DNA of 64,000 nucleotides from Halomarina rubra (lineage in GTDB: Archaea > Halobacteriota > Halobacteria > Halobacteriales > Haloarculaceae): NCBI RefSeq assembly GCF_023699475.1, contig NZ_JALXFV010000002.1, positions 248,001 to 312,000 of the forward strand. The letters run 5' to 3'. Position numbers and translations under genes: made by a program. Below are positions 13,096 through 42,431 of this stretch, one piece after another; the stretch's first letter is position 1; each line of letters starts with the position of its first letter. The notes below the pieces were generated by a model. The model made no database searches. It was not told the origin of the DNA and saw nothing but the letters and a program-made list of their open reading frames with translations.

Positions 13096-14346
13096 ATGAC
13101 GGACGACCAACACGAGCGGCGAAGTAGGCGGTGGTCGCGCCGGCGACTGCTGACGACCGTCGGCGCGGCAGGCGTCGGTGCCGTCGCGGGTTGTCTCTCG
13201 CGCGAAGCGAACGGTCGGGCCGGCCCTCACCAGCGCGGAGGGGGTCGGCCGGCGATGTTCGTCGACCGCGACGAACTCGCGGCCGTCGCGGCCCGCGTCG
13301 ACGCCGGCGAGGAGCCGTGGGCCAGCGCCTACGGAGCGTTCCTCTCCGACGCCGACGAGTCGCTCGACGCCAGCCCCAAGAGCGTCACTGACGACGGTGG
13401 CGGCCACGCGTTCGAACCGAGCGACCCCGACGACGACAGTCGGACCGACTACGTCGCCGCCATCGAGATGGGCGACCGTGTGCGGGACCTCGGATTGGCC
13501 TACGAACTCACCGGGGACGACGCCTACGCCGAGCGTGCGGTCGAGTTCCTCGACCACTGGTTCCTCGCGTCGGACACCTACATGACCCCCGAACTGACCG
13601 ACAGCATCGAGCAGTTCATCACGCTCCCGAAACTGTGGTACGGGGCCGAACTCGTCGGCGACCACGCCGCGTGGGAACAGGTCGACGGGGAGTACTCCGA
13701 ACTCGTCGACTGGGTCGACACCTACCTCGGCGAACTCGGGACGGGGACGCCCGACTGGGTTCAGAACATGTTCGTATGGCGGGAGGTCGCCCACGCCGCC
13801 GGTGCGGTGTTCGTCGGCGACGACGAGCAGGTCGCTGGCTGCTTCGACCGCCTGCGCGAGACCGCGTTCGGTCAACTGCGTTCGGACGGCCTGCTCGAAG
13901 AGGAGTTGGGGCGCGCGGAGGGCCTCTCGTACTCGCTGTACGCGTTGAAGGCGTTCGTCACCGCGGCCGAACTCGGGCGGCACTACGGCGAGTCGCTCTA
14001 CGAGTACGAACGGCACGGCCAGAGCGCGCTGAAGCTGATGTTCGACGCGCACGCCGAGTTCTTCTTCGACCCCGAGTCGTTCGACGAGCAGTACGGCGAG
14101 GCCGGCGGCTTCGCGGCCCGCGAACGTGAGGAGGGAACCTCCGCGTACGAACTGGCGTACTCCTACTGGGGCGACGAACGCTATCTGGAGGTCGTCGAGT
14201 CGGGCGGAAGCGAGATTACGAACGAACCGACGTACGTCGCCCAGCATCAGGACGCCATCGACTCGTCGGGACGGCCGGTCCGCGACGAACGACTGCTCGG
14301 GTGGACGACGCTCACCCACGGCAACCGGTTCGACCTCGACACGTAG
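13096..14346 (+). CDS. Tat lipoprotein related to alginate lyases (PL5-like fold)
   Basis: The start is ATG 13096 (416 aa). The signal RRWSRRRLLTTVGAAG ends in lipobox VAGC (Cys33), predicting Tat export and lipid anchoring. The mature part is an (alpha/alpha) toroid matching the alginate_lyase family: EFLDHWFL, QNMFVWREVAHAAGAVFVGD (223-242), then EEELGRAEGLSYSLYALKAF (268-287). Arg273 and Tyr279 align with the catalytic Arg/Tyr of PL5 enzymes. The Asn-His pair that neutralises the uronate is not intact: Asn224 is present but is followed by Met-Phe. It may act on another polyuronide or be non-catalytic. Confidence 0.75.
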   Translation: MTDDQHERRSRRWSRRRLLTTVGAAGVGAVAGCLSREANGRAGPHQRGGGRPAMFVDRDELAAVAARVDAGEEPWASAYGAFLSDADESLDASPKSVTDDGGGHAFEPSDPDDDSRTDYVAAIEMGDRVRDLGLAYELTGDDAYAERAVEFLDHWFLASDTYMTPELTDSIEQFITLPKLWYGAELVGDHAAWEQVDGEYSELVDWVDTYLGELGTGTPDWVQNMFVWREVAHAAGAVFVGDDEQVAGCFDRLRETAFGQLRSDGLLEEELGRAEGLSYSLYALKAFVTAAELGRHYGESLYEYERHGQSALKLMFDAHAEFFFDPESFDEQYGEAGGFAAREREEGTSAYELAYSYWGDERYLEVVESGGSEITNEPTYVAQHQDAIDSSGRPVRDERLLGWTTLTHGNRFDLDT

Positions 14347-29597: not shown

Positions 29598-31982
29598 TCA
29601 GCTATCGCTCGCGTTCTCGCCCGTCGCGGGCAACTGCGACTGGTCCACCGCGTAGAGGGTGACACCCTGGAACTGCTCCTCGACGCGCACACCGGGGACG
29701 TCCTCGAAGGAGACGTCGGCTCCGAACTCGTCGCGCTCTCTCGGCCCGACGTAGACGTAGTCCACGTCGTACTCCGCGAGGAGGCGAGCGCGTTCGTCGG
29801 GACTCCCCACGAACATCCGGGCGGCGTCGCTCGCGCGCTCCCGGTAGGTCTCCTCGCCGCGGTAGCCGATTTCGTGTGCCCAGCCGGCGACCGACATGTG
29901 GCCGGTGAGACTCGACTCGGGGTTGGTCCACTGGTAGGTCTTCCAGCCCGGGGCGGCGGCGATGGTGACCTGACCCGGTCGCTCGTCGAGCCACACGATG
30001 GCTGCGGCCTCGTCGCCGTGGTAGTTCTCGACGAACTGTGTCCCGTCGAGCGTCGGCTCCTCGGGGACGTACAGCTCCTGGGCGTCCGGGTCGTAGTACC
30101 CCGGTTCCGCGGTGAAGTGGTCGGCCATCGCCAACCCGCCGTAGATGGACGTGCTGACGACCAGCAGGACGGCGAGCACCGTCGCGGGTCGCACCCGGTC
30201 GAGCATGGCGCGGTCCGCGCTGGCGAACGAGGCGAGCGACGGGGCAGGCGTCGCCCGGGCGACGAGCCCCGCCAGCGCCGCCCCTGCGGCGGGTGCCCAG
30301 AGTACCCACACCTGCGCGTACGTCTTGAACACCGTGTTCATCCGACCGGGACCGGCCTCCTCCTTGAGGTACACGAGGTCGACGAGCAGGACCACGCCCG
30401 CAGCGGCGAGGACGAGCACCGTCACGAAGCTGGTGTCGAGGTCGGCGGCGCGACGCGCCCGGAGCAGGAGCCACGCCCCCGCGCCCAGCGGGACGAGCAG
30501 GCCGAGCACGGCGACCCCGGCCCCCCACGTCAGAAGCGCGAGCGCGAGCCAGCCGAGGAGCACGGCGGCGAGGCGTGAGGCGTCGAGGTCGACGACGTCG
30601 CGTGCACGACCGACGAGGAACGGGACGAACACGAGGAGGAAGCCGCCGTGGACGACGAACAGCCCCCACAGCGAGCTCCGGTTCTCGACGAGTTCGACCG
30701 ACCGACCGCTGGCGGTGCCCGACCAGAACATCGCGGACCCTGCCACCGCGAGCACGGCCAGAACGCCGGTGACGAGGAGCGCGCCGCCGGTCCAGCGCAG
30801 TTCGGTGCGGGCCCACGACGGGAGCGACCGTCGCAGCCGTTGACATGTCCCCCGAGAGAGCGGGGAGGCCTCGCGACCCCCGAACCGGCTCGACAGGAGC
30901 GTCAGCGGGTCGCTCGGCGCGAAGGTGACCGCCAGCCACGCGACGCCGAGGACGGTCGGGAACGACCACGTGTTGACAACGGCGACGAGCGCGGCGTCGA
31001 CGGCGACGAGCGAGAGCAGGCCCCGGCGTCGCCACAGCGTCGCCTCGGGCGTTCGGTAGTACGAGAGCGAGAGCGTCACCGCCAGCAGCATGAACGGCGT
31101 GCTCATCATGTGCGCGTGGAGGTCGCCGTTGAGGAACGCGAACAGCGGGAACTCGTTGATGGTCCCCGGGATGACCCGACTCGCCCCCCAGTAGGTGAAC
31201 TTCGAGAGGGGGGCGGTCATCGACCCGCCCCACGCGTCGGGGGTCGTTCCGAGGAGGGCGGCGAGCGCACCGACGACGGCGTCGGGCAGTGCGTTGTACA
31301 GGACGCGAATCGGCGTCGCGAGGTTGCTGGCGACGCCGACGAACAGCGCGCCGAACGTCGCGGCCGTGGTCCGCGAGGCCGGGAGGCGGTCGGCCAGCGA
31401 CCCCGCGAGGCCGTAACCCGCGGTGACGAGCATCGCGTAGAACCCCGCGAGCGCGAGGTTGTACGCGTAGCGCGGGGCGGTGAACGTCGCCTTCGTCAGC
31501 ATCGCGGCGAGCATGTGCCCGCCGTAGTAGTACTGGACGCGCTCGCCGGCGAACCACGGGTCGAGCGGCGGGAGGCGGTCGGCACGCAACAGCGCCTTCA
31601 CCAGCGAGTAGTCGAGGAACTTCTCGCCCGCGGTGGCGTGGATGGCCGGATCGACCGCCCGAACCGCGACCAGAAACAGGAACGCGAGGACGAACACGAG
31701 TGCCGTCTCGACGGCGACGCGGGGGTCCGGGCGCGCCCCGGAGTGGACCGCGAGTGCGGAGGCGGCGAGCAGGACGACGACGCCGACGGCGATGGCAGGC
31801 CACCCGAACGCGACGTGGCCGACGACCCACGCGACGAACCCCGAGACGAGCAGCGTCGCGGGGATGGCGACGCCGGCACCGCGGTCGGACAGCGACGGGG
31901 TCAACGCGGCGACGATGGGGAGGCCGACGGCGTAGAGGGCGAGAAACGCCACCAGCCACCGGAGAACGAGACCGACTTCCAT
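29598..31982 (-). CDS. DUF2298 (archaeal YYY-type) multi-spanning membrane protein
   Basis: 794 aa with about twenty hydrophobic helices. It has features of the DUF2298 / archaeal YYY family: an extracytoplasmic loop FLDYSLVKALLRADRLPPLD then DPWFAGERVQYYYGGHMLAA, and INEFPLFAFLNGDLHAHMMS. The latter resembles the acidic/His loops of GT-C glycosyltransferases. The C-terminal ~200 residues form a soluble outer domain (AMADHFTAEPGYYDPDAQEL...). Family members are thought to transfer sugars from lipid carriers outside the membrane; this is inference from fold and context. It is divergent from the GT2 gene at 32091 and opens the glycan locus. Confidence 0.87.
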   Translation of the reverse strand: MEVGLVLRWLVAFLALYAVGLPIVAALTPSLSDRGAGVAIPATLLVSGFVAWVVGHVAFGWPAIAVGVVVLLAASALAVHSGARPDPRVAVETALVFVLAFLFLVAVRAVDPAIHATAGEKFLDYSLVKALLRADRLPPLDPWFAGERVQYYYGGHMLAAMLTKATFTAPRYAYNLALAGFYAMLVTAGYGLAGSLADRLPASRTTAATFGALFVGVASNLATPIRVLYNALPDAVVGALAALLGTTPDAWGGSMTAPLSKFTYWGASRVIPGTINEFPLFAFLNGDLHAHMMSTPFMLLAVTLSLSYYRTPEATLWRRRGLLSLVAVDAALVAVVNTWSFPTVLGVAWLAVTFAPSDPLTLLSSRFGGREASPLSRGTCQRLRRSLPSWARTELRWTGGALLVTGVLAVLAVAGSAMFWSGTASGRSVELVENRSSLWGLFVVHGGFLLVFVPFLVGRARDVVDLDASRLAAVLLGWLALALLTWGAGVAVLGLLVPLGAGAWLLLRARRAADLDTSFVTVLVLAAAGVVLLVDLVYLKEEAGPGRMNTVFKTYAQVWVLWAPAAGAALAGLVARATPAPSLASFASADRAMLDRVRPATVLAVLLVVSTSIYGGLAMADHFTAEPGYYDPDAQELYVPEEPTLDGTQFVENYHGDEAAAIVWLDERPGQVTIAAAPGWKTYQWTNPESSLTGHMSVAGWAHEIGYRGEETYRERASDAARMFVGSPDERARLLAEYDVDYVYVGPRERDEFGADVSFEDVPGVRVEEQFQGVTLYAVDQSQLPATGENASDS

Positions 31983-32060
31983 ACCGGTGGGCGGGCAGGA
32001 GCGTGTAAACCTCTTTTGTCACCGACCGAGCGACCTGTCGGAATTCGAATATCCGAACCC

Positions 32061-32066
32061 TTTTAC
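32061..32066 (+). promoter_or_regulatory. TATA box of the GT2/GtrA pair
   Basis: TTTTAC in the context CCCTTTTACGAG, 25-30 nt before the ATG at 32091, within the 108-bp divergent promoter region shared with the DUF2298 gene. Confidence 0.5.
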
Positions 32067-32090
32067 GAGTCCCGCTGAAGTAGTCTTCGT

Positions 32091-32849
32091 ATGCCGTCCG
32101 TCGGTGTCGTCGTCCCTGCCTACCGGCCGAACGTCGAGCAGCTCTCGGCGTACGTCCACGCGCTCGACGAGCGCTTGGCCCCGACGGAGATCCGTATCGA
32201 ACTGGACGCCGCCGACCCCGAGACCAGGCGGGCGCTCGGCGACCTCCCGGTGAGCGTCGGCGCGGTGTCCCACCGCCGGGGGAAGGGTGCGGCCATCACG
32301 GCGGGGTTCGAACACCTCGAGACCGATATCCTCGCGTTCGTCGACGCAGACGGCGCGACCCCCGTCGAGAGCGTCGCGGACGTGCTCGCACCACTCGTCG
32401 AGGGGACCTCGACCGTCGCCATCGGCTCTCGCCGTCACCCCGACGCGACGGTGTTGAGCCACCAGACCCGCGCCCGTCGTCGGATGGGCGACGCGTTCGC
32501 GTGGGTCGCCGGGCGACTGCTCGACGTCGACATCTACGACTTCCAGTGTGGCGCGAAGGCCATCACGGCCGAGGCGTGGGCCGCCGTCCGCACTCACATC
32601 TACGAACCCGGGTTCGCCTGGGACGTCGAGTTCGTCGCCGTGAGCGAGGCGCTGGGGTACGACCTCGTCGAGGTACCGGTGACGTGGTGTGACCAACCCA
32701 ACTCGACGGTCGACCCAATCGACGCGGCCGTCGAGATGGGCCGGGCGTTGGTGGTGGCTCGCCACCGCGCGCTCCGCCTCCAGGACCACCGGTTCCACGG
32801 CGCGTTCCCGGCGACGACGCCGGCGCTCGTCGACAGGGAGCCACGATGA
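32091..32849 (+). CDS. GT2 glycosyltransferase, polyprenyl-phosphate sugar synthase type
   Basis: 252 aa with the GT-A fold: VGVVVPAYRPNVEQL at the start, SHRRGKGAAITAGFEH, and the metal-binding DxD in ILAFVDADGATP (Asp85, Asp87). MGDAFAWVAGRLLDVDIYDF and QCGAKAITAEAW match dolichyl-phosphate mannose/glucose synthases. It has no membrane domain of its own. The next gene (GtrA) overlaps by four bases (ATGA) and supplies one, as in archaeal DPMS enzymes with C-terminal GtrA helices. Expected reaction: NDP-sugar plus dolichyl phosphate to Dol-P-sugar on the cytoplasmic face. Confidence 0.9.
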   Translation: MPSVGVVVPAYRPNVEQLSAYVHALDERLAPTEIRIELDAADPETRRALGDLPVSVGAVSHRRGKGAAITAGFEHLETDILAFVDADGATPVESVADVLAPLVEGTSTVAIGSRRHPDATVLSHQTRARRRMGDAFAWVAGRLLDVDIYDFQCGAKAITAEAWAAVRTHIYEPGFAWDVEFVAVSEALGYDLVEVPVTWCDQPNSTVDPIDAAVEMGRALVVARHRALRLQDHRFHGAFPATTPALVDREPR

Positions 32850-33304
32850 GCACGGGCCGCGTCGACGCGCTGCTCTCGGGGGTCCGCTTCAGCAAGTTCG
32901 TCTCCGTCGGAGCGGTCGGTGCGGTGTTCGACCTGACGGTGTCGACGCTCCTCATCCTCCAGTTCGGCGTCGCCGGCGAGGTGGCGAAGGTCGCCGGCGC
33001 GGAGGTCGCCATCGTCATCATGTTCTTCATCAACGAACACTGGACGTTCGCCGACGAGGGCGACGCCGGCGTCCTGCCGACGCTTGGCAGACTGCTGAAG
33101 TCGAACCTCGTCCGCAGCGGCGGCGTCGCCGTCCAGTTCCTCGTGGTCCGGACGCTGGGGACCGTCGCCATCACGCTCCCGCTGTTCGGCGTGAACCTCT
33201 GGGACCTCATCCCCCTGCCCATCGCCATCGGCGTGTCGATGCTCATCAACTACGTGCTGGAGAGCCTCGTGACGTGGCAGGTCGCCTCGGAAGCGGACAG
33301 CTGA
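32846..33304 (+). CDS. GtrA-family membrane protein
   Basis: 152 aa, four helices. The GtrA pattern is FSKFVSVGAVGAVFDLTVST in helix 1, then FFINEHWTFADE (the conserved N-x-x-WTF), VAVQFLVVRTLGTVAITLPL and IAIGVSMLINYVLESLVTW. GtrA proteins anchor or flip polyprenyl-phosphate sugars. Translational overlap with the GT2 gene implies a stoichiometric pair. It ends 86 bp before the initiator tRNA gene. Confidence 0.9.
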   Translation: MSTGRVDALLSGVRFSKFVSVGAVGAVFDLTVSTLLILQFGVAGEVAKVAGAEVAIVIMFFINEHWTFADEGDAGVLPTLGRLLKSNLVRSGGVAVQFLVVRTLGTVAITLPLFGVNLWDLIPLPIAIGVSMLINYVLESLVTWQVASEADS

Positions 33305-33390
33305 GAACCACGTCACCGCACCGCGGTATCGCGTGACGCGGCGGCGGTGGAATCACAACCCTTACCTAGCAGGCTCGGGTACGAGGTAGT

Positions 33391-33465
33391 AGCGGGATGG
33401 GATAGCCAGGAGATTCCGCCGGGCTCATAACCCGGAGATCGGTAGTTCAAATCTACCTCCCGCTA
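33391..33465 (+). tRNA. Initiator tRNA-Met (anticodon CAU)
   Basis: The acceptor stem is AGCGGGA / TCCCGCT, D-arm GGAT...TTCC, anticodon arm CCGGG-CTCATAA-CCCGG, T-arm GGTAG-TTCAAAT-CTACC and discriminator A. CCA is not encoded and there is no intron. The A1-U72 pair and three consecutive G-C pairs at the bottom of the anticodon stem (GGG/CCC) mark it as the initiator, not elongator, tRNA. A CCCTTAC element at ~33358-33364 is at promoter distance, and a short T-run (TTTT) follows the gene. Its 3' end is repeated twice downstream. Confidence 0.95.
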
Positions 33466-33508
33466 TTTTACTGCGAACAACGGCGAGGAGCGAGGCGACG
33501 AGTCCGGT
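33442..33508 (+). repeat. tRNA 3'-end direct repeat, copy A (in the tRNA)
   Basis: This covers the T-arm and acceptor 3' strand plus ~43 bp downstream. It matches 33703-33769 imperfectly but along its whole length, including the shared ACTGCGAACA block at 33471-33480. The first 23 bp differ at three positions. Confidence 0.75.
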
Positions 33509-33566
33509 GAGGAGTGAAATAGTCCGAGTAGTTCGAACGAGACTGTGAGCGAAGCGAACAGGCGTC

Positions 33567-33587
33567 GTTCAAATCTACCTCCCGCTA
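33567..33587 (+). repeat. tRNA 3'-end direct repeat, copy B
   Basis: An exact 21-bp copy of 33445-33465 (T-loop to discriminator base of the initiator tRNA). There is no matching 5' half, so it is not a tRNA gene. Confidence 0.9.
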
Positions 33588-33702
33588 CTTCTCTCAGACT
33601 CACACCCCGAACGGTGCGTTTCATCGCGCCGTGAGGACGTCGTGAGTCCGGAGCGGCAGTCCGAGTAGAGCAGAAACAGGGGGCGAACGCCAGTGAGCGA
33701 CT

Positions 33703-33769
33703 GTAGTTCGAATCCCCCTCCCGCTGTCGTACTGCGAACATCGGTGCGGAGCGCCGCGTCGAGTCCGGG
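33703..33769 (+). repeat. tRNA 3'-end direct repeat, copy C
   Basis: It starts GTAGTTCGAAT and ends the tRNA-like part with CTCCCGCT at 33725. It continues with sequence similar to that following the real tRNA (ACTGCGAACA at 33730-33739). The distance between copies A and C is 261 bp. Confidence 0.75.
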
Positions 33770-33864
33770 CGTCGCGCAGTGTGGACGGTCACGCGAACGT
33801 GATAGTTTTCGAACTGGTAGTGTGCAGCCACAACGTATTCCTTCCGTGGTGAAGTCGAACCTCC

Positions 33865-34593
33865 ATGGTCGACAGCGAGATCCTCGACGGTGCCATCGCC
33901 GAGCGGCCACGGGAGGTGAGCGAGCATCCGTTGCTCGCTGCCGTCTACGACCGCCACGACGCGCTCATCCGCCGGTACACACGTCGCGATGGCCGCACGC
34001 TGGAACTCGCGTTCGGACGCCACGCCCACCCCGACGCCGACGTGGGCGTCGAGGCGTTCCACGAGAACTGCGTCGACGTGGTCGGCATCGACGCGACGAC
34101 CGCCGACGCCCGACGGTTGCCGTTCGCGGACGACTCGTTCGACACCGTCGTCGGACGGCGCTTCCTCCACCACGTCCCCGAGGCCGACCGCGCGGCCATC
34201 GTCGCCGAGGCGCGACGCGTCCTCGCACCCGACGGTCGGTTCGTCGTACTGGAGGGGACACCGGGGCTGTACCGGCGACTGACGAAGGCCGTCGCGTTCC
34301 GACTGGGGGCGCTGGGTGAGGACACCGACGAGTACGGCCACCTGTCGGTGGACGAACTCCGCGACCTGCTCGACGAGGGTGGGTTCGAGACGGTGGCGTT
34401 CGAGCGCCTCGGCTCGCCGCTGATGCCGCTGAGCATCTCGACCGCGCCGTGGAGCGCGCGGGTCGCACCGCTGTACGAGTGCACCCAGTTCGTCCGGTGG
34501 TGGACGCTGGCGGTGGCGACGCCGACGGCCGACCCTGTGGCGGTCTCGCGGGTCGAGCGGCCCGAATCGTCGTCGAAACAACGACACGTCTAA
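33865..34593 (+). CDS. Methyltransferase-fold protein of the glycan locus
   Basis: 242 aa. The later SAM-methyltransferase motifs are clear: VVGIDATTADARRLPFADDS (~72-91), FDTVVGRRFLHHVPEADRAA and EARRVLAPDGRFVVLEGTPG. Motif I, normally a glycine-rich GxGxG after an acidic residue, is replaced by LELAFGRHAHPDADVG (~46-61), so SAM binding may be altered. The C-terminal ~90 residues are typical of Methyltransf_11 proteins that act on sugars or lipids. The stop is 27 bp from the GT2 start. A role in methylating a glycan or a lipid carrier is inferred from position. Confidence 0.78.
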   Translation: MVDSEILDGAIAERPREVSEHPLLAAVYDRHDALIRRYTRRDGRTLELAFGRHAHPDADVGVEAFHENCVDVVGIDATTADARRLPFADDSFDTVVGRRFLHHVPEADRAAIVAEARRVLAPDGRFVVLEGTPGLYRRLTKAVAFRLGALGEDTDEYGHLSVDELRDLLDEGGFETVAFERLGSPLMPLSISTAPWSARVAPLYECTQFVRWWTLAVATPTADPVAVSRVERPESSSKQRHV

Positions 34594-34619
34594 GTGAGGC
34601 GGCCGCCGTTCGACAACTC

Positions 34620-35294
34620 GTGCGTACCGTCGCCGTCATCCCCGCGTACAACGAAGCCACGACCATCGGGACCGTCGTCGATGGCGCGCTGGCCCACGTC
34701 GACCACGTGGTCGTCGTCGACGACGGGTCAAGCGACGACACCGCGAGCGTCGCCCGCCGTCACGGCGCGAGCGTCGTCGAACACGTCATCAACACGGGTG
34801 TCGGCGGCGCGGTCCGGACGGGCTATCGCTACGCCATCCGAAACGACTACGACTTCGTCGTCCAGATCGACGCCGACGGCCAACACGACCCGGAGTACAT
34901 CCCGAAACTGCTCGCCGAAGCCGAGGACCACGACATGGTCATCGGCAGTCGCTACCTCAACGACAGCCACGAGGAGTACTCGCAGGTCCGCAACGTCGGC
35001 ATCCGCTTTTTCACGCGCGTCGTGAACAGTCTCGGCGGCATCGACATCACCGACGTGACGAGCGGCTTTCGCGTGTATCGGACCTCCAAGCTAGAGACCA
35101 TCCTCCACCACTCCGACAAGCACTGGGCGGTCGAACAGACGCTCGACGCGGCGCGGTCGAACCACCGAATCACGGAGGTGTCCGTCGAGATGCCCGTGCG
35201 CGACGAGGGGGCCTCGCAGTTCACGCTCGACACGTTCGTGCTCTACCCCGCGCGCATGGCCGACGTCATCCTCCGCGTCCTCATCTTCCGCTAA
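34620..35294 (+). CDS. GT2 glycosyltransferase, Dol-P-glucose/mannose synthase-like
   Basis: The GTG at 34620 begins VRTVAVIPAYNEATTIGTVV exactly at the first strand of the GT-A fold; no earlier in-frame start is credible. 224 aa. Motifs: VVVDDGSSDDTASVA (31-45), NTGVGGAVRTGYRYA and the DxD in FVVQIDADGQHDPEYIP (Asp84, Asp86). GIDITDVTSGFRVYR and a late MPVRDEGASQFTL complete the family. Related archaeal enzymes (AglJ-like) charge dolichyl phosphate with the first sugar. The stop overlaps the start of the DUF2304 gene by one base, indicating a paired membrane partner. Confidence 0.9.
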   Translation: MRTVAVIPAYNEATTIGTVVDGALAHVDHVVVVDDGSSDDTASVARRHGASVVEHVINTGVGGAVRTGYRYAIRNDYDFVVQIDADGQHDPEYIPKLLAEAEDHDMVIGSRYLNDSHEEYSQVRNVGIRFFTRVVNSLGGIDITDVTSGFRVYRTSKLETILHHSDKHWAVEQTLDAARSNHRITEVSVEMPVRDEGASQFTLDTFVLYPARMADVILRVLIFR

Positions 35295-35653
35295 TGGCAG
35301 AGTACACCGTCGTCAACCTCGTCACGCTCGTCATCGGGCTGGGACTGCTGTTCAACGGCTACTACATCGTCCGTCGCGGGCGCGAGGACATCGCGCTGTT
35401 CGTCCTCTCGGCCATCGTCGGTCTCGGTCTGGTGTTCGTCGCCCTGCTCCCGAACGCCTTCCAGAGCGTCGCGACCGTCCTCGGTCTGGAACTCCAGGCG
35501 CGGGCCATCCTCGTCGTCTCGAACCTCGTGTTGTTCGTCGTCGTCACCTACCTGTTCAACCGCATCGGGAAGCTGTACGACCAGCAGTCCCGGCTCAACG
35601 AGGAGGTCAGCCTGCTGAAGAACGACCTCGAAGAACACCGCGATGACCGGTAG
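35294..35653 (+). CDS. DUF2304 membrane partner of the GT2 enzyme
   Basis: 119 aa. Three helices (VVNLVTLVIGLGLLFNGYYI, ALFVLSAIVGLGLVFVALLP, AILVVSNLVLFVVVTYLFNR) are followed by a predicted coiled coil (LYDQQSRLNEEVSLLKNDLE, ~93-112). DUF2304 genes very often sit directly after GT2 genes, and the proteins are thought to help membrane docking or transfer of lipid-linked sugars. The TAATG junction with the GT2 gene and an 11-bp overlap with the deacetylase mark one operon. Confidence 0.87.
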   Translation: MAEYTVVNLVTLVIGLGLLFNGYYIVRRGREDIALFVLSAIVGLGLVFVALLPNAFQSVATVLGLELQARAILVVSNLVLFVVVTYLFNRIGKLYDQQSRLNEEVSLLKNDLEEHRDDR

Positions 35654-36557
35654 CGACCCCGGCGGGCGGCCCGAGGACACTCCCCGAGCAGTCCTCTCTA
35701 TCGACTTCGAACTGTTCGCACAGACGCCCGCCTACCGGGGCGCGTCCGGAACGGCACCCGACGAGACCGTCGGTCTCGAACAGGGGCAGTTCCTCCGCGA
35801 GACGCTCGCCGCCCACGACGCGGACGCGACGTTCTTCACCGTCTCCTCGGTGGCCGACGAGCACCCCGAGGCGGTTCGGGCCATCGCCGACGCGGGCCAC
35901 GAAGTCGCCTCCCACACCCACAGCCACCGTCTGCTGTCGGACCTCTCCCCCGACGAGCGCCGCGGAGAACTCGTGCGCTCACGCGAGACCCTCGAATCGG
36001 TCACGGGCACGTCCGTCGACGGCTTCCGCGCCCCGGCGTTCGACGTGCCCGACGGGACGTTCGCCGACCTCGCGGCGGCGGGCTACGCCTACGATTCGAG
36101 CGTCGCCGCCTGCCGGAAGATTCCGGGCTGGTACGGCGGGGAGGACGACGCGGTCCGCCCGTGTTCGGCGGCCGACGTGCGTGCGGACGCTCCCGCGCAC
36201 CTCGCGGAACTCCCCGTCGCGGTCATGCCGGGCCTGCGACTGCCCCTGACCGGGACGTGGCTCCGCTTCTTCGGCGTTCGCTACACCGTCGCCGGGATGC
36301 ACCTGCTCGCGCGCCGGGGTATCACGCCCGTCCTCTACGTCCACCCGTGGGAACTGGCGGACCTCCCCGACGTGGACGGGGTTCCGAAGCGCGTGTACGT
36401 CCGGACCGGGACGTGGATGCGTCGGGCCGTCGAGCGCATCCTCGCAGAACCGTTCGAGTTCGTCACCGCCCGAGAGGTCGTCGCCGACGCGGTGGGGACA
36501 CCGCCGTACGGGACGGGACCGACCGTCGACACCGGCCCCGACGGCGAGGCCGAGTAG
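35643..36557 (+). CDS. Polysaccharide deacetylase (NodB-fold)
   Basis: 304 aa. Motif 1 is LSIDFELFAQT (Asp21), motif 2 is SHTHSHRLL (His91, His95), motif 3 is GFRAPAFDVPDG, and a late motif TPVLYVHPWELAD carries the last His. The family removes N- or O-acetyl groups from sugars with a single metal ion. There is no signal peptide, so it would act in the cytoplasm on a lipid-linked or nucleotide sugar. It overlaps the DUF2304 gene by 11 bp and is followed one base later by the next GTG. Confidence 0.9.
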   Translation: MTGSDPGGRPEDTPRAVLSIDFELFAQTPAYRGASGTAPDETVGLEQGQFLRETLAAHDADATFFTVSSVADEHPEAVRAIADAGHEVASHTHSHRLLSDLSPDERRGELVRSRETLESVTGTSVDGFRAPAFDVPDGTFADLAAAGYAYDSSVAACRKIPGWYGGEDDAVRPCSAADVRADAPAHLAELPVAVMPGLRLPLTGTWLRFFGVRYTVAGMHLLARRGITPVLYVHPWELADLPDVDGVPKRVYVRTGTWMRRAVERILAEPFEFVTAREVVADAVGTPPYGTGPTVDTGPDGEAE

Positions 36558-36558
36558 C

Positions 36559-37584
36559 GTGGTCGACGACCGACTGAAGCGTGTCCTCGGGTTCGTCCTC
36601 CGGTACGGCATCGGCCTCCTCGCCGTCGCGTGGCTCCTCCAGCAACTCGACTCCGACCGACTCGTGGGGGTCCTGACCGACGTCCCGCCCGTGACGCTCG
36701 CGGCGTTGCTCGCCGTCACGGTCGTCGGCCTCGCAGGACGGTTCTTCACGTGGCACGTGTTGATGAACCGCCTCGACTCGGCCAGTTTCCGGGCCGCGGC
36801 GAGCACCGACCTCGTCGTCAACTTCATCAACCAGGTGCTCCCCTCGCGGCTGTCGGGGCGGGCGGCGGCCCCCGTCGTCGTCCGCACAGAGGCGGGTCTG
36901 AGCGGCGGGGACAGCGTCGCCGTCGCGGGGGTCCACACGGGGCTGTACGCCGTGCTGTACGGCGTCGTCTCGGCGGTCGGCGTCGTCGCCGGTCTCGGCG
37001 AGTTCCCGACCGGCGTCCTCCTCTTGCTCGCGCTCTCGACGGTGCTGTACTTCGCGGCCGGCGCGTTCGTGCTGATGGTCGGGTCGAACCTCACCGCGCT
37101 CGACCGGTTCCTGGCGGGCGTCGCGGGTCTGTTCGACCGACTCCCGCGTGTCGGGACGCGCCTCGCCGGGATGGTCCGGTCGCTCCCCGACTTCACCGAC
37201 GCCTCCGCGGACGCGTTCCGGACGCTCTCGACGGCCCCACGGACCGTCTCGCTGTACGCGCTGGGCTGGCTGGTGGCGATGGTGCTGACGCCGGGGCTTC
37301 GCGTCTGGCTGTTGTTCGACGCGCTCGGGACCGGGTTCGAACCGGCGCTCCTCCTGCCGCTGTACCTGCTCGCGGCGTACAGCGTGACGCTGCTCCCGCT
37401 GACGCCCGGCGGCATCGGCGTGACGGAGGCGACGGCGACGGCGGTGTTCGTCGCGCTGGGGGTGCCCGCCGAGGTCGTCGTCCCGGTCGTGTTCATCGAC
37501 CGGTTCCTGAGCGTCTACCTGCCGGCGCTGGCGGGCTGGTACCCCTCGCTCAGGCTGGACCTCTCGGCGCTCGCGCCCGAGTAG
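36559..37584 (+). CDS. Flippase-like membrane protein (LPG-synthase TM / UPF0104 family)
   Basis: The GTG start is one base after the deacetylase stop; 341 aa with about eight helices. The family signature is FINQVLPSRLSGRAAAPVVV (~94-113), with LPLTPGGIGVTEATATAVFV near the C-terminus. It is the same domain as the C-terminal half of AglD, where it follows a GT2 domain; here it is a separate gene. The expected role is moving or presenting a polyprenyl-phosphate sugar, inferred from AglD-like relatives. Confidence 0.87.
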   Translation: MVDDRLKRVLGFVLRYGIGLLAVAWLLQQLDSDRLVGVLTDVPPVTLAALLAVTVVGLAGRFFTWHVLMNRLDSASFRAAASTDLVVNFINQVLPSRLSGRAAAPVVVRTEAGLSGGDSVAVAGVHTGLYAVLYGVVSAVGVVAGLGEFPTGVLLLLALSTVLYFAAGAFVLMVGSNLTALDRFLAGVAGLFDRLPRVGTRLAGMVRSLPDFTDASADAFRTLSTAPRTVSLYALGWLVAMVLTPGLRVWLLFDALGTGFEPALLLPLYLLAAYSVTLLPLTPGGIGVTEATATAVFVALGVPAEVVVPVVFIDRFLSVYLPALAGWYPSLRLDLSALAPE

Positions 37585-37590
37585 AGGAGA

Positions 37591-37599
37591 AAGTATTTC
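37591..37599 (+). promoter_or_regulatory. TATA box of the phosphatase-fold gene
   Basis: AAGTATTTC, 24-32 nt before the ATG at 37623. It indicates an internal promoter of the glycan locus. Confidence 0.45.
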
Positions 37600-37622
37600 C
37601 GCCGCCCTCGGCTCGCATCGGT

Positions 37623-39167
37623 ATGACTCGGACGTTCGTCGTCGGTCTCGACGGCGCGAGCTGGCGACTGCTCGACCCGTGGCTCGACGCCGGCGACCTG
37701 CCGAACCTCGCCGCCCTCCGCGAGTCCGGCGCGTGGGCCGCCCACCGGAGCTGTCTCCCGCCCGTGACGTTCCCCAACTGGAAGTGCTACTCCTCGGGGA
37801 AGGACCCCGGCGGCTTCGGCGTGTTCTGGTTCGAACACGTCGACCTGGAGAACGAGGAGATAACGGTCGCCAACGGCGGCGACTTCCGGACCGTCGAACT
37901 GTGGGACTACCTCAACGACGACGGGATGACGACGGGCGTCGTCAACATGCCGACGATGTACCCGCCCCGCGACCTGGACGGCCCCGTGGTCTGTGGCGGC
38001 CCCGACGCCGTCTCCGGTGAGTACCGCTCCATCGACTCGGGGTACACCTCGCCCGCGGACCTCGCCGACTACCTCGAACGCGAGTTCGACTACGAGGTCC
38101 ACCCGAACCCGCTGCTCTCCTCGAACGAGGAGCGCGGCGCGGAGGTCGACGCCATCCTCGACGTGATGGACTCGCGGTTCGACGTCGCCCTCGACCTGTT
38201 CGAGCGCGACGAACTCGACTTCATGCACGTGACGCTGTTCTACCTCAACGTCCTGCATCACTTCTTCTGGGACGACGAACCGGTGTACCGGGCGTGGCAA
38301 CTCGTCGACGAGCGCCTCGGCGAACTGCGCGAACTGGAGGACACGACGCTCGTGCTCATGTCCGACCACGGCGCGGCCCCCACCACGACGGAGTTCTACG
38401 TCAACGAGTGGCTCGCCGAGAACGGCTATCAGGCCCGCGAGCGCACCGTCGAGGACTACCTCAAGCCGCTGGGGCTGACCCGCGAGAACGCGCTGAAGCT
38501 CGCCAAGCGCGCCGGCATCGTCGACACGCTCGCGGCGGTCGTCCCCCAGCGTCTCCAGCAACTCGTCCCCCAGAGCGCGGGGCTCAAACGCGGGCGGAAG
38601 CTGGAGGCCATCGACCTGCCGAACACGAAGGCCGTCGCCAGCGGCCAGGGACCCATCTACATCAACCCGCGATACGACGTCGAGGCGGTCCGCGAGGAAC
38701 TCGTCGCCGACCTCGAAGCGGTCTCGGACGCCGACGGACCGCTGTTCACCGCCGTCCACCGCGGAGAGGACGTCTACCACGGCCCGTTCGTCGACGAGGG
38801 CCCGGAGGTCGTCGTCGACATGCGCCCCGGCGTCCACGTCAACGACGGCGTCGGCGGCGGCGAGGTGACGACCGCCCCCGACCGCTGGGCCGCCGAGAAC
38901 ACGCCCCACGGCATCTTCGTCGCCGCGGGACCGAACGTCGCTGCGACCGGTGAACTCGACGACATCTCCATCCTCGACATCGCGCCGACGGTGCTGGCGG
39001 GGATGGGGAGCGACGTGCCGACCGACATGCGCGGGGAGGTCCTCGACGTCTTCGCGGACGCCCCCGAGTGGAGCGAGCGCGACCCGCTGTCGTTCCGCCA
39101 GCGAGAGGGCGTCGGCGACGGCGACGAGGTGGCAGACCGCCTGAAACAACTGGGGTACATGGAGTGA
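37623..39167 (+). CDS. Alkaline-phosphatase-superfamily phosphodiesterase/phosphatase
   Basis: 514 aa. Metal ligand Asp10 is in VVGLDGASWRLLDPW. The Thr49 nucleophile is in PPVTFPNWKCYSSG. LVLMSDHGAAPTTTEF provides Asp-His ligands and ENTPHGIFVAAGP the last His, followed by ISILDIAPTVLAGMGSDVP. This is the type I phosphodiesterase/nucleotide pyrophosphatase subgroup, which can also act as sulfatase or phosphoglycerol transferase. Its placement in a glycan locus makes a sugar-phosphate or lipid-phosphate substrate likely (inference). It has no signal peptide and its own promoter. Confidence 0.88.
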   Translation: MTRTFVVGLDGASWRLLDPWLDAGDLPNLAALRESGAWAAHRSCLPPVTFPNWKCYSSGKDPGGFGVFWFEHVDLENEEITVANGGDFRTVELWDYLNDDGMTTGVVNMPTMYPPRDLDGPVVCGGPDAVSGEYRSIDSGYTSPADLADYLEREFDYEVHPNPLLSSNEERGAEVDAILDVMDSRFDVALDLFERDELDFMHVTLFYLNVLHHFFWDDEPVYRAWQLVDERLGELRELEDTTLVLMSDHGAAPTTTEFYVNEWLAENGYQARERTVEDYLKPLGLTRENALKLAKRAGIVDTLAAVVPQRLQQLVPQSAGLKRGRKLEAIDLPNTKAVASGQGPIYINPRYDVEAVREELVADLEAVSDADGPLFTAVHRGEDVYHGPFVDEGPEVVVDMRPGVHVNDGVGGGEVTTAPDRWAAENTPHGIFVAAGPNVAATGELDDISILDIAPTVLAGMGSDVPTDMRGEVLDVFADAPEWSERDPLSFRQREGVGDGDEVADRLKQLGYME

Positions 39168-39216
39168 CCCGGCGAGCGGAGCCCCCTCGTGCGACCACCG
39201 TCACCGAATCACGAGA

Positions 39217-39222
39217 CTTTTG
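39217..39222 (+). promoter_or_regulatory. TATA box of the GT39-like gene
   Basis: CTTTTG in the context GAGACTTTTGCC, 25-30 nt before the ATG at 39247. Confidence 0.45.
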
Positions 39223-39246
39223 CCACACTCGGCTGAGCGGGTGAGT

Positions 39247-41043
39247 ATGCGGCGACTGCTCTCCCCGCTCGGTCGGGTTCGCGACCGGGTCCGTTCGGAC
39301 GTCGACGCCGACCCGTACCTCGGGTACATCCTCGTGCTGGCGTTCGTCCTCGGTGCGTTCTGGTTCTGGCACCTCGCGCCGAACTTCGCGACGCGCGACG
39401 AGATGGACCGCATCCTCGACCCGATGGTCGCGTTCGGCGTCTTCCAGTCCGACCCGTCTATCGCCTCGTTGCAGGCGGGAATCGAGTGGGGCCGGGTCCC
39501 GTTCGGCGCGACGTTCTACCTGTACGCGCTGGCGCTGGTGCCGGTCGTCGTCGTCGCCGCACTCACGGGCCAGATGGACATCTTCGACACCTTCGCCGAC
39601 CCGCGGTGGCCGTTCAGCGCGTTCGGCACCTACGAGGCGTGGCACGCCACGCCCGAGTGGGTCTGGCTGACCGTCGTCTCCATCGCCCGCCTGTTCACCG
39701 TCCTGTTCGCCGTCGGGTCGGTCTACCTCACCTACCGCATCGGGACGGAGATCCGCGACCGAGCGACGGGCCGACTCGCGGCCGTCCTGCTGACGGTGAC
39801 GTGGGGCTTTCTCACCATCAGTCACGAGGGCGGCGAGGACATGCCCGCGATGTTCTTCGTCCTGCTCGCGCTGTACCTGCTGCTCGGATACGTCCGGACC
39901 GGGTCGGACCGGCGGTTCTACGCCGCCAGCGCGGCGGGCGGGGCGGCCATCGCGTTCAAACTGACGGCGTTCCCCGTCATCGTCGCCGTGGGGGCGGCGT
40001 GGCTGCTCCGGGCGCGCGAGGCCGACGACTGGCGGGACGCGCTGGTCCAGCCGACGCTGCTCGTCGCGGGCGCGCTGTTCGGTCTCGCGGTCATCCTGCT
40101 GGGCTTCCCGACGTTCCTCGTCGGCGGCACCGACCAGATTCTCACGCGGTTCTTCGAGGGGTCGGGAGAGCGGGCGGACTGGGCGACCGGCCCCGACGCC
40201 CCCATCTGGTGGTGGTTCCTGCGGGGGTACTTCTCCGGCATGAGCCTCCCGCTGTTCCTCGCGTCCTGTGCGGGCGTCGTCGGTGGCGTCTACCAGCTCG
40301 CGACGAACCGCGAGGAGTCGAGTTACATCGCGCTCGTGCTCGTCGCGCTCGGGACGTACGTCCTGCTGTTCTCCCAGTGGCACGACTTCCGCGTCCACCA
40401 CCTGCTACCGACGTTCCCGCTGCTGGCGGTGCTGGTCGCGCTGGGGCTGAACCGACTCCTGCGCGACGCGCCCCGCGCCGGCGTCGCACTCACCGTCCTG
40501 TTGCTGCTGTCGACGAGCGTCTACGCCGCCGTCGGGGTCGTCGGCTACGCGACCATGCCCCGCGACGAGGCCGTGGACTGGCTCGACGAGAACGCCGAGG
40601 ACGGTGACACCCTCGAACTGTACCGCGTCCACATGCAGGACACGGCGGTGCCCCACTCGATAGACGTCAACCACCGCTACGAGAACAGGGAGAGCCACGT
40701 CGCCTGTCCCGAGTACGTCGAGATAACGTACCGCGACCTGCTGTACCTGAAAGACGGGACGTACTACCGCAACGGCGCGCCACAGAAGACGTACGTCAGG
40801 AACATGCTGAACGGCGAGTACGGCTACGAGATCGTCGCCGAGTTCGGCCCCCGGCCCCCGAACTTCGTCCCCGAGCGGGCGTCGCCGGGGTCGCTCGTCG
40901 ACCTGCTCCCCTACGGCGTGATTCCCCACACCGACCAGTACGCCGACGAGCAGGAGTTGGAGCCGAACCAGTACACGGCGATTCTGGCTCCGACCGGGCC
41001 GAACTCCTGTGACGCCGACCGCGGCATCCCGTTCTACAACTGA
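39247..41043 (+). CDS. GT-C glycosyltransferase (family 39 / ArnT-like)
   Basis: 598 aa, about eleven helices and a C-terminal outer domain (~440-598). The first outer loop holds the GT-C acidic motif FATRDEMDRILDPM (~47-60). ISHEGGEDMPAMFFVLLALY is also typical of PMT/ArnT proteins. These enzymes take a sugar from a polyprenyl-phosphate donor on the outer face and pass it to a protein or lipid. Such donors could come from the two GT2 pairs at 32091 and 34620. It has its own promoter and ends the locus; the next gene is convergent. Confidence 0.87.
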   Translation: MRRLLSPLGRVRDRVRSDVDADPYLGYILVLAFVLGAFWFWHLAPNFATRDEMDRILDPMVAFGVFQSDPSIASLQAGIEWGRVPFGATFYLYALALVPVVVVAALTGQMDIFDTFADPRWPFSAFGTYEAWHATPEWVWLTVVSIARLFTVLFAVGSVYLTYRIGTEIRDRATGRLAAVLLTVTWGFLTISHEGGEDMPAMFFVLLALYLLLGYVRTGSDRRFYAASAAGGAAIAFKLTAFPVIVAVGAAWLLRAREADDWRDALVQPTLLVAGALFGLAVILLGFPTFLVGGTDQILTRFFEGSGERADWATGPDAPIWWWFLRGYFSGMSLPLFLASCAGVVGGVYQLATNREESSYIALVLVALGTYVLLFSQWHDFRVHHLLPTFPLLAVLVALGLNRLLRDAPRAGVALTVLLLLSTSVYAAVGVVGYATMPRDEAVDWLDENAEDGDTLELYRVHMQDTAVPHSIDVNHRYENRESHVACPEYVEITYRDLLYLKDGTYYRNGAPQKTYVRNMLNGEYGYEIVAEFGPRPPNFVPERASPGSLVDLLPYGVIPHTDQYADEQELEPNQYTAILAPTGPNSCDADRGIPFYN

Positions 41044-41077: not shown

Positions 41078-41779
41078 TCAGGTGCGCGCCGGTACTTCGA
41101 TTCCCAGTTCCTCCAGCAGCGTCTCGGCCGCGGCGGTCGAGGACCCCGGCCCACGGGCCGTCACGAGGTCGCCGTCGACAGTGACGCTCTCGTCGCGGTC
41201 GAGTTCGGCGTCCCAGTTCCCGCCGGCCGCCTTCACCTCGTCCTCGACCCAGTAGGGTAGTTTCCGGCCGTCGGGCATCACGTCGTTTTCGTCGACGATG
41301 TCCGCCTCCCACTCGTTGGGGAAGCCGGTGACGTCCCGGCCCTCGACGAGTCGGTCCCCGTCCTCGCTCCACGTGAACGCGAGGATGCCGACGGCGTGAC
41401 AGACGACGAGCGCCTTCCCCTCGTCGCCCGCGACGGCGTCGGCGAGCAGTTGCCGGGCGTGGACGTCCTGGTTGACGTCCCACTCGGTGCCGTGCCCCCC
41501 CGGGAAGAGGACGGCGTCGTAGTCGTCGGCGCTCACGGTCGCGAGCGGGTCGGGGTCGTTCAGTCGCTCGTCGTTCTCGTGGACCTCGCGGAGTCGCTCG
41601 GACTCCTCCTCGCTCCCCGTGCTGTCGGGGTCCAGCGACCGCTCGTCGACGACCGGTGGACTCCCCGAGGGCGTCGCCACCGTCACCTCGACGCCCGCGT
41701 CGGTGAGCGTCGTAAGCGGTTCGATACACTCCTCGGCCCAGTACCCCTCTTCGCTGACTACGAACAGCGCGTTCGTCAT
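41078..41779 (-). CDS. DJ-1/PfpI-family protein (Hsp31-like)
   Basis: 233 aa. The nucleophile elbow is ALVVCHAVGILAF with Cys127-His128; acidic partners are Glu10/Glu16 in VVSEEGYWAEECIEPL. VLFPGGHGTEWDV (90-102) forms the second active-site loop. The larger size and PYWVEDEVKAAGGNW segment fit the Hsp31/class I glutamine amidotransferase-like branch. Members act as glyoxalase/deglycase-type stress proteins or proteases. It is a single gene facing the GT39-like gene tail to tail. Confidence 0.88.
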   Translation of the reverse strand: MTNALFVVSEEGYWAEECIEPLTTLTDAGVEVTVATPSGSPPVVDERSLDPDSTGSEEESERLREVHENDERLNDPDPLATVSADDYDAVLFPGGHGTEWDVNQDVHARQLLADAVAGDEGKALVVCHAVGILAFTWSEDGDRLVEGRDVTGFPNEWEADIVDENDVMPDGRKLPYWVEDEVKAAGGNWDAELDRDESVTVDGDLVTARGPGSSTAAAETLLEELGIEVPART

Positions 41780-41867
41780 GACGCTCGACGGTAGGGCCGC
41801 CGCGCAGAAAAACCCGCATTAACCCCTCAGCGTTGCTCCCTCTCGGATTCCGGAGTGGTCGGTTCGC

Positions 41868-42431
41868 CTACCCGTCGCCCTGCTCGTCGGTGATGACGAC
41901 CTCGCCGTCGACGACGTCGACGTTGATGAGCGTCTTCACGTCGTAGTCTTCCATCTCGTTGTCGCCGCCGGTCTTCTTGATGACGGCGACGATGTCGGCG
42001 ACGTCGGCACCGGTCTCTTCGAGCGCCTCGCGGATGGCACGCAGGGTACCGCCCGTCGAGAGCACGTCGTCGAGCAGGAGGACGCGGTCGCCCTCGTAGA
42101 CGTCGTTCATGTACATCTCGTTCTCGGAGTAGCCGGTGACCTGCGCGAGGCTGACCTCGCCGTCGAGGCCGTACTGGCGCTTGCGGATGACGACCAGCGG
42201 GATGTCGGTCATCAGCGAGACCGCGGTGGAGATGTGGATGCCCATCGCCGCGGGGGTGACGATCTTGTCGACACCCTCCAGTTCGGCCTTCCGGATGATG
42301 CCGATGGTGATCTCTCGGAGGAGCTTCGGGTCGAGCATCGGGACGCCGTCGCTGATGGGGTGAACGAAGTACTCGTAGTCTCCCTTCTCGATGATGGGAG
42401 CCTCACGGAGTGACTGCGCGAGCAAGTCCAT
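41868..42431 (-). CDS. hpt: Purine (hypoxanthine/guanine) phosphoribosyltransferase
   Basis: 187 aa of the archaeal PRTase family. The PRPP-binding signature is [13 protein letters not shown] (117-129), and [15 protein letters not shown] (59-73) and [12 protein letters not shown] form the substrate loops. It salvages purine bases by joining them to PRPP. The archaeal subgroup includes hypoxanthine/guanine- and adenine-specific members, so the exact base is not certain. It is a single gene with its promoter between 42432 and ~42470. Confidence 0.9.

Follow-up and report, generated by a model that had tools for sequence, protein, structure and literature searches.

The 11.5-kb region at positions 29598..41043 of the window, i.e. 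of the whole 64,000-nucleotide stretch of Halomarina rubra DNA analysed here, consists of two independent conserved units, designated modules A and B, which are neighbours in Halomarina alone among the 146 genomes of the family Haloarculaceae used as the comparison set. They are probably two separate three-component systems lying side by side, the former of the Gtr type and the latter a co-inherited cassette for a lipid-linked amino sugar. Pfam and NCBIfam profile searches of the window proteins recovered all ten genes named in the initial annotation together with their domains, including the two GT2 enzymes, each with its own small membrane partner, and the free-standing flippase domain. Three starts were corrected by orthologue alignment, to 34620 (not 34449) for the second GT2, 37623 for the phosphodiesterase and 39247 for the GT-C transferase.

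Module B comprises six genes, all on the forward strand. The first one, GT2b (34620..35294), encodes a putative Dol-P-HexNAc synthase, as judged from NCBIfam matches, its motif and its structural relatives: it belongs to PF00535, its closest named models are PpgS, AglJ and ArnC, the DADGQHDP motif is conserved, and the solved relatives are the Pyrococcus DPMS and ArnC. Its best NCBIfam match is PpgS (NF058614), yet the score of 103 bits lies far below the equivalog cut-off of 370, and it is also matched by the AglJ and Dol-P-hexose transferase models, which counts against the amino-sugar reading. Immediately after it, as in GacI/GacJ-type pairs, follows the gene of its presumed partner, a DUF2304 protein with three TM helices of the GacJ/Rv3632 type (35294..35653; Pfam). 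A close DUF2304 protein is present in 41 genomes and missing in 27 of the 68 with module B, many of the 27 having a more distant GT2 nearby, so that the donor sugar may vary among lineages. Next come a NodB-type deacetylase with a DUF3473 domain (35643..36557; Pfam, NCBIfam and catalytic residues), a PF03706/TIGR00374 flippase-like protein (36559..37584; Pfam and NCBIfam), a PF01663 phosphodiesterase of the alkaline-phosphatase superfamily (37623..39167; Pfam) and a PMT-like GT-C transferase with an invariant D-E motif (39247..41043; Pfam and structure model). The deacetylase has neither a signal peptide nor a TM helix, and its catalytic D..E and SHT..H residues are kept in 66 orthologues; it should thus act prior to flipping, in agreement with the earlier suggestion that a Dol-P-sugar, its putative substrate, is modified by deacetylation. 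The phosphodiesterase, with its catalytic residues intact and no TM helix or export signal, is apparently cytoplasmic. The model of the GT-C transferase (pLDDT 86.5) matches ALG12 (TM 0.63), ALG9 (0.59), Pmt4 and ArnT, which points to a GT-C fold like that of Dol-P-sugar enzymes and to a putative user of a lipid-P-sugar.

Module B is inherited as one unit in many haloarchaea. The deacetylase and the flippase occur together in 68 of the 146 genomes and are both absent from the other 78, neither being ever found alone; the GT-C transferase is present in the same 68 genomes and one more. The phosphodiesterase accompanies them in 65 of the 68, the Haloarcula clade included, where it lies ~110 kb from module B, while a close orthologue is lacking in two genomes with otherwise clear modules (G069 and G070). 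The set has been gained or lost together within several genera, Halomarina itself having four genomes with it and four without, and H. oriensis being one of the species that carry it. When 20-kb neighbourhoods from 66 genomes of 11 genera were clustered in an unbiased manner, the only families recurring across genera were those of module B, a sulfatase and one minor protein; the six-gene module is therefore no chance cluster. Joint phylogenetic profiling in the 146 genomes, by which all genes of the region might have been expected to travel together, bore this out for module B as a co-inherited set and failed for module A and the methyltransferase.

Concerning the pathway, GT2b, anchored by the DUF2304 protein, would move an N-acetylhexosamine-type sugar from its nucleotide onto dolichyl phosphate, and the cytoplasmic deacetylase would strip the acetyl group from the lipid-linked sugar, freeing the amine in an ArnD-like manner. 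The PF03706 protein, the putative dedicated flippase of module B, would then turn the Dol-P-amino sugar outwards, and the GT-C transferase would add the amino sugar to an extracellular glycan or a lipid-linked oligosaccharide. The phosphodiesterase would be a committed partner that, at a guess, proofreads the lipid- or nucleotide-linked donor or recycles it. Decoration of the cell surface with an amino sugar is the likely outcome. Of all this, the data show the genes with their motifs and folds, the co-inheritance and the insertion site, while substrates, sequence of steps and acceptor are inferred.

The deacetylase is also the starting point of a different interpretation, according to which module B serves exopolysaccharide or capsule synthesis, a GT2-primed repeat being deacetylated, flipped and polymerised as with the bacterial XrtA-linked EPS deacetylases. 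The best match of the deacetylase with DUF3473 is indeed TIGR03006, the XrtA-system polysaccharide deacetylase, this closeness to the XrtA/EPS type counting against the amino-sugar reading, and Haloarcula makes abundant acidic EPS (PMC5467301). The match, however, reaches 122 bits where the cut-off is 276, and across the 66 neighbourhoods module B has no conserved gene for a Wzy polymerase, Wzx, chain-length control or a sortase. The known EPS genes of Haloarcula hispanica sit elsewhere (HAH_1661-1667 and HAH_1206; PMC9943897), and amino sugars are not among the EPS sugars reported for that species, namely GlcA, Man, Gal and Glc; an EPS function is thus unlikely. As for the bacterial relatives of the deacetylase, none of 21 non-haloarchaeal loci containing it carries the module.

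In H. hispanica, the GT2, DUF2304, deacetylase, PF03706 and GT-C genes of module B were placed at HAH_1567-1571, the GT2b orthologue being HAH_1567 and that of the deacetylase HAH_1569, by ORF count with gene calling trained on local H. hispanica sequence. The EPS genes HAH_1662/1667 had also been considered as module B and were ruled out by primer mapping, which set them ~100 kb apart. Dol-P-QuiNS is present in this species (PMC9943897), and Dol-P-sulfoquinovosamine could be the module B product in Haloarcula. On the other hand, HAH_1567-HAH_1573 have been listed as one of four putative glycosyltransferase clusters with citation of the Agl22/Agl23 paper (PMC9943897), and HhAgl23 is a putative Glc/Gal-P-Dol flippase, the purified protein flipping M5GN2-PP-Dol (PMC11182771). 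Module B might accordingly be taken for the Agl22/Agl23 Dol-P-glucose/galactose branch, with Agl23 as its flippase and an unrelated substrate for the deacetylase; HAH_1570 could encode Agl23, a hexose-P-Dol flippase, and this would favour neutral hexoses. This assignment is decidedly unlikely, given that PF03706 proteins number four in H. hispanica, one being an AglD-like fusion with a GT2, and that the exact co-inheritance of the deacetylase would be left without reason.

Module A begins with a DUF2298/TIGR03662 membrane protein encoded on the reverse strand (29598..31982; profile match with E 7e-173), which has ~12 TM helices and is a putative Dol-P-sugar-dependent transferase. It is followed, on the forward strand, by GT2a (32091..32849), a DPMS/AglJ-like putative Dol-P-sugar synthase assigned by Pfam, NCBIfam and the adjacency to DUF2298, and by its GtrA/DPMS-TM partner (32846..33304), assigned by Pfam and by its position after GT2a. 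The module is near-universal in the family: GT2a adjoins DUF2298 in 99 of 110 genomes, with a median gap of 119 bp, and GtrA lies directly after GT2a in all 18 loci examined. In an AlphaFold/Foldseek search, DUF2298 matched solely STT3, AglB, PglB and ArnT at E<1e-3, with low TM-scores of 0.3-0.46; its GT-C-like character is thus supported by structure comparison and not by sequence. The earlier count of two GT-C-type proteins holds on this basis for DUF2298 and by fold for the transferase of module B. Module A accordingly links a GT2, a GtrA and a GT-C, the last by structure, as in three-component glycosylation systems. It probably represents an ancestral haloarchaeal Gtr-type system, in which GT2a and GtrA would synthesise and present a Dol-P-sugar and DUF2298 would act as the GT-C transferase.

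Between the two modules there is a tRNA-Met gene (33390..33466, forward strand), absent from the initial annotation, that marks the end of module A and the left border of an inserted block. The methyltransferase and module B occupy the spacer between this tRNA-Met and the DJ-1/phosphoribosyltransferase genes, the same spacer being empty in relatives; two genomes (G051 and G065) read GtrA–tRNA-Met–DJ-1–Hpt without the block, and the best explanation of why A and B adjoin is therefore that module B was inserted next to tRNA-Met. Two forward-strand copies of the tRNA-Met 3' end, one of 27 nt (33564..33590; 93%) and a second, degenerate one of 66 nt including the flank (33703..33768; 82%), were considered as att scars of module B and dropped as main evidence, since a copy 96-112 nt downstream is found also in genomes without module B and the right border has no tRNA-Met 3'-end copy at all. 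The class-I SAM methyltransferase (33865..34593, forward strand; Pfam) is an accessory gene: it occurs in 19 of the 146 genomes, belongs to the inserted block in Halomarina only and is elsewhere unlinked to the region, so that its proposed membership in the pathway is not supported.

These data bear on the one-locus model of the initial annotation, i.e. a single 11.5-kb pathway making two Dol-P-sugars, deacetylated and methylated, for one acceptor. All the genes are indeed adjacent in four Halomarina-group genomes, but 52 genomes keep the conserved DUF2298 and GT2-GtrA unit without module B, the two modules lie ~800 kb apart in H. hispanica, with DUF2298 and its GT2 at chr I ~692-695.5 kb, few genomes have the methyltransferase, and insertion accounts best for the adjacency. 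The left half of the region is thus conserved independently and without linkage; a single pathway, contradicted as an ancestral unit, is very improbable, functional coupling within Halomarina alone being possible. No AglB is present in the window, as noted earlier; it is encoded elsewhere in the genome (G000:C15:885248) and, the module being on C9, is not linked to it. Finally, a GPI-like or glycolipid-head-group pathway (de-N-acetylation, flipping, Dol-P-sugar addition and phospho-transfer by an alkaline-phosphatase-superfamily enzyme) is hardly credible. Its order of activities does parallel GPI synthesis, and the PF01663 relatives include the GPI ethanolamine-phosphate transferases, but the GPI phosphotransferases are membrane enzymes while the module B phosphodiesterase lacks both a TM helix and an export signal, and the deacetylase is of the CE4/NodB, not the PIG-L, type.

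Returning to the amino-sugar cassette, co-inheritance by itself suffices to name every gene of a probable lipid-linked amino-sugar pathway in archaea. Most of these genes lie together in the genetically tractable H. hispanica, where Dol-P-sugars and S-layer glycans are already measurable. If the reading is true, the reported intermediate Dol-P-QuiNS would be tied to genes, DUF2298 and a PF01663 subfamily would gain a function, and there would be a hint as to which kinds of protein might serve as deacetylase and flippase for polyprenyl-P-GalNAc in mycobacteria and corynebacteria. Tentatively, all this may be joined into one picture. With module B, archaea would have their first pathway for a free amino sugar linked to dolichyl phosphate, which in Haloarcula would be sulfoquinovosamine. 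The module would be, after Arn and PpgS, the third evolutionary assembly of the charge-deacylate-flip-transfer logic and would include a committed phosphodiesterase not recognised before; the families of its deacetylase and flippase would suggest candidates for the missing mycobacterial steps, and DUF2298 would serve as transferase in another haloarchaeal three-component system, a near-universal one.

By analogy, the best reading of module B is that of a three-component system akin to ArnC/ArnD/ArnT and to GacI-GacJ or PpgS-Rv3632. Both modules encode together, like the GtrA-GtrB-Gtr* systems, a GT2 synthase, a membrane partner or flippase and a GT-C; module B differs in being archaeal, in its PF03706 flippase and dolichyl phosphate carrier, and in the added deacetylase and phosphodiesterase. 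With the Arn system (ArnC-ArnD-ArnEF-ArnT, transferring Ara4N to lipid A) it shares the GT2 and, presumably, flipping and GT-C transfer, and a cytoplasmic NodB-family deacylation is predicted for it; ArnD removes the formyl group from Und-P-Ara4FN, and the module B deacetylase, of NodB fold, would likewise act on a lipid-P-sugar. Module B, however, possesses DUF2304 in addition, no SMR gene of the ArnE/ArnF type (EamA/SMR) is conserved in the 66 neighbourhoods, PF03706 being there instead, and its GT-C model is nearer to ALG12/ALG9 than to ArnT. AglD of Haloferax volcanii likewise brings a GT2 and a PF03706-type flippase into one pathway, but fused. That these parts are separate genes here, as the initial annotation stated, is true and yet not special: a 615-aa AglD-like GT2-PF03706 fusion is encoded elsewhere in the genome of the window (G000:C11), the split genes thus being no replacement for AglD, and both this genome and H. 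hispanica hold such a fusion and further PF03706 proteins. The HAH_1567-HAH_1573 cluster contains the module B orthologues, with the phosphodiesterase ~110 kb off, at chr I 1386560-1388104. The pairs GacI/GacJ, EpaI/EpaJ and WpsA/WpsB, in which a GT2 and a DUF2304 partner make Und-P-GlcNAc (PMC8327497), have the same order of GT2 and DUF2304 genes as module B, a point in favour of a HexNAc product for GT2b, but no linked NodB deacetylase has been described for them and their acceptor is a bacterial wall polysaccharide. In the PpgS (Rv3631)-Rv3632-Rv3779 system, adding GalN to arabinogalactan, a GT2 and a partner of 114 aa with three TM helices (Rv3632; PMC6487176) make polyprenyl-P-GalNAc (PMC9671496), which is deacetylated, flipped and transferred by a GT-C; GT2b is no PpgS equivalog by score, but for the deacetylase and flippase, reported there "as yet unidentified" (PMC9671496), module B holds candidates.

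The locus, situated in a haloarchaeal genome of 4.07 Mb, begins with module A, i.e. the DUF2298 gene (29598-31982, minus strand), GT2a (32091-32849) and GtrA (32846-33304), followed by a tRNA-Met gene (33390-33466) overlooked by the initial annotation. Behind a methyltransferase gene (33865-34593), module B covers GT2b (start corrected to 34620), DUF2304 (35294-35653), a NodB-type deacetylase with DUF3473 (35643-36557), a PF03706/TIGR00374 flippase-like protein (36559-37584), a PF01663 phosphodiesterase (start 37623) and a PMT-like GT-C (start 39247). Domain and profile searches confirmed every gene named initially; the proposal of one 11.5-kb lipid-linked-sugar locus (29598-41043) gives way, on the evidence of profiles and gene maps, to two modules, A being kept without B in 52 genomes.

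The profiles of eight window proteins were obtained by searching 146 genomes of the family. The deacetylase and the flippase co-occur perfectly (both in 68 genomes, neither in 78, each alone in 0), the GT-C is found in the same 68 genomes plus a further, incomplete one, the phosphodiesterase in 65 of the 68, co-inherited even where it lies 110 kb from module B, and a close DUF2304 in 41 genomes, all deacetylase-positive. The corresponding Fisher values are tiny, the test and the counts ignoring relatedness among genomes; stronger evidence is the joint switching of the set within genera, with four positive and four negative genomes in the window's own genus and comparable splits within the genera g3, g10, g13 and g20. 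Nineteen genomes, every one module B-positive, carry the methyltransferase, which outside the window's genus is not linked to module B. DUF2298 (125/146) and GT2a (122/146) are near-universal, independent of the distribution of module B; the best hits of the two lie side by side in 99 of the 110 genomes compared (median gap 119 bp), including those 52 lacking module B. In Haloarcula hispanica, module A is located at 692-695.5 kb of chromosome I and module B at 1495-1500 kb; of the gene maps drawn, only those of the four Halomarina-group genomes show both modules next to each other.

The simplest account of this adjacency is an insertion beside tRNA-Met. Genomes without module B show the order DUF2298, GT2a-GtrA and tRNA-Met, then DJ-1 and/or phosphoribosyltransferase, with 257 bp (G051, of the window's genus) or 198 bp (G065, of another genus) between tRNA-Met and DJ-1, the gap that the methyltransferase and module B (7.2 kb) occupy exactly in the window. 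The DJ-1/PfpI and phosphoribosyltransferase genes, here at 41078-42431, are in many genera ancestral neighbours of module A and its tRNA-Met. Copies of the tRNA-Met 3'-end follow the tRNA at 33564 and 33703 (region 33442-33768; 0 and 3 mismatches over 20 nt); since a similar copy lies 96-112 nt downstream in empty-site genomes, it is probably older than the insertion. It recurs at about this distance across other genera, where in most cases it is identical in sequence to the tRNA of the same locus, as though the two changed together. In G052, which belongs to the window's genus and lacks module B, the corresponding position behind tRNA-Met (358-3003 nt downstream) holds a second DUF2298 paralogue, which suggests repeated insertion at this site.

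Clustering of all predicted proteins in 20-kb windows (66 genomes, 11 genera) recovered the flippase, deacetylase, GT2b, GT-C and phosphodiesterase families in all 11 genera, DUF2304 in seven, and a sulfatase in five, the lineages concerned carrying a distant GT2 and, for the most part, lacking a close DUF2304; one unrelated family was found in three genera (five genomes), the remaining ones being lineage-specific. The deacetylase and flippase genes are close and on the same strand in nearly every map, with intervening genes in a few lineages, while the flanking phosphodiesterase and GT-C vary in side and orientation. The sulfatase, lying beside module B at 13297-14046 of locus L111 and in 16 other genomes, could indicate that the sugar there is a different or a sulfated one, and where DUF2304 is missing the sugar may be another. 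Outside the locus, the window's genome encodes a second GT-C paralogue (G000:C12:486737-488470) sharing 53% identity with that of module B; other genomes have such paralogues too, some in tandem. It also encodes, besides true AglB, a second, divergent STT3/AglB-like protein (G000:C12:375351-377336; loci L002 and L003), a 795-aa frame that scores under the family cut-off. Beyond the family, the set was found in Haloparvum, Halopenitus, Halobacterium, Haladaptatus, Halococcus, Salinarchaeum and Halodesulfurarchaeum, with a patchy distribution (flippase in 72 of 392 genomes of the order-wide sample, 19 of them from other families). In Haladaptatus pallidirubidus it resides on plasmid unnamed6, a possible route for such spread. 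The bacterial relatives of the deacetylase examined shared just that gene, the rest of module B not being found; in a Chloroflexi MAG (L166), a related deacetylase gene sits together with three GT2 genes and a weak match to DUF2304, a possible bacterial counterpart.

Concerning function, DUF2304 genes directly follow GT2s making lipid-P-GlcNAc (GacI/GacJ, EpaI/EpaJ, WpsA/WpsB; PMC8327497), and the Pfam DUF2304 model gives matches, at genome level, in two controls, Corynebacterium glutamicum and Lactococcus lactis. Among NCBIfam models PpgS fits GT2b best, scoring under the cut-off, and the relatives of GT2b with solved structures are Pyrococcus DPMS and ArnC. In the deacetylase the catalytic residues are conserved and neither a TM segment nor an export signal was detected, so that it is expected to work on the cytoplasmic side, ahead of the flipping step, in the way ArnD does. 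An invariant D-E pair is present in the GT-C, its predicted model (pLDDT 86.5) being closest to ALG12 and ALG9, then Pmt4 and ArnT. The DUF2304/GT2 pairing, the deacetylase features and the GT-C model suggest a pathway in which Dol-P-HexNAc would be synthesized, deacetylated, flipped and its amino sugar transferred outside the cell. The phosphodiesterase is seemingly cytoplasmic, with catalytic residues intact.

Published primers for HAH_1662, HAH_1667 and HAH_1206 (PMC5467301, PMC9943897) match genome G013, which is therefore H. hispanica ATCC 33960. With ORFs counted back from HAH_1662 (tags by count, not annotation), GT2b, DUF2304, deacetylase, flippase and GT-C correspond to HAH_1567-1571, followed by another GT2 and an MFS protein (HAH_1572-1573). 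Dol-P-linked sulfoquinovosamine (QuiNS) is a plausible product of module B there. Dol-P-QuiNS is present in this species and used in S-layer glycosylation, and HAH_1567-HAH_1573 is one of four putative glycosyltransferase clusters (PMC9943897), a boundary agreeing with the start of our count. Alternatively, Agl22/Agl23 could include HAH_1570; HhAgl23 has been described as a putative Glc/Gal-P-Dol flippase (PMC11182771), and the species encodes four proteins of the PF03706 family.

As for module A, the structure predicted for DUF2298 from 17 sequences (pLDDT 82.6) had no matches at E<1e-3 other than GT-C enzymes, namely STT3, AglB, PglB and ArnT, and the TM-scores were low (0.3-0.46). Combined with the divergent GT2-GtrA partner, DUF2298 looks like a Gtr-type three-component system.
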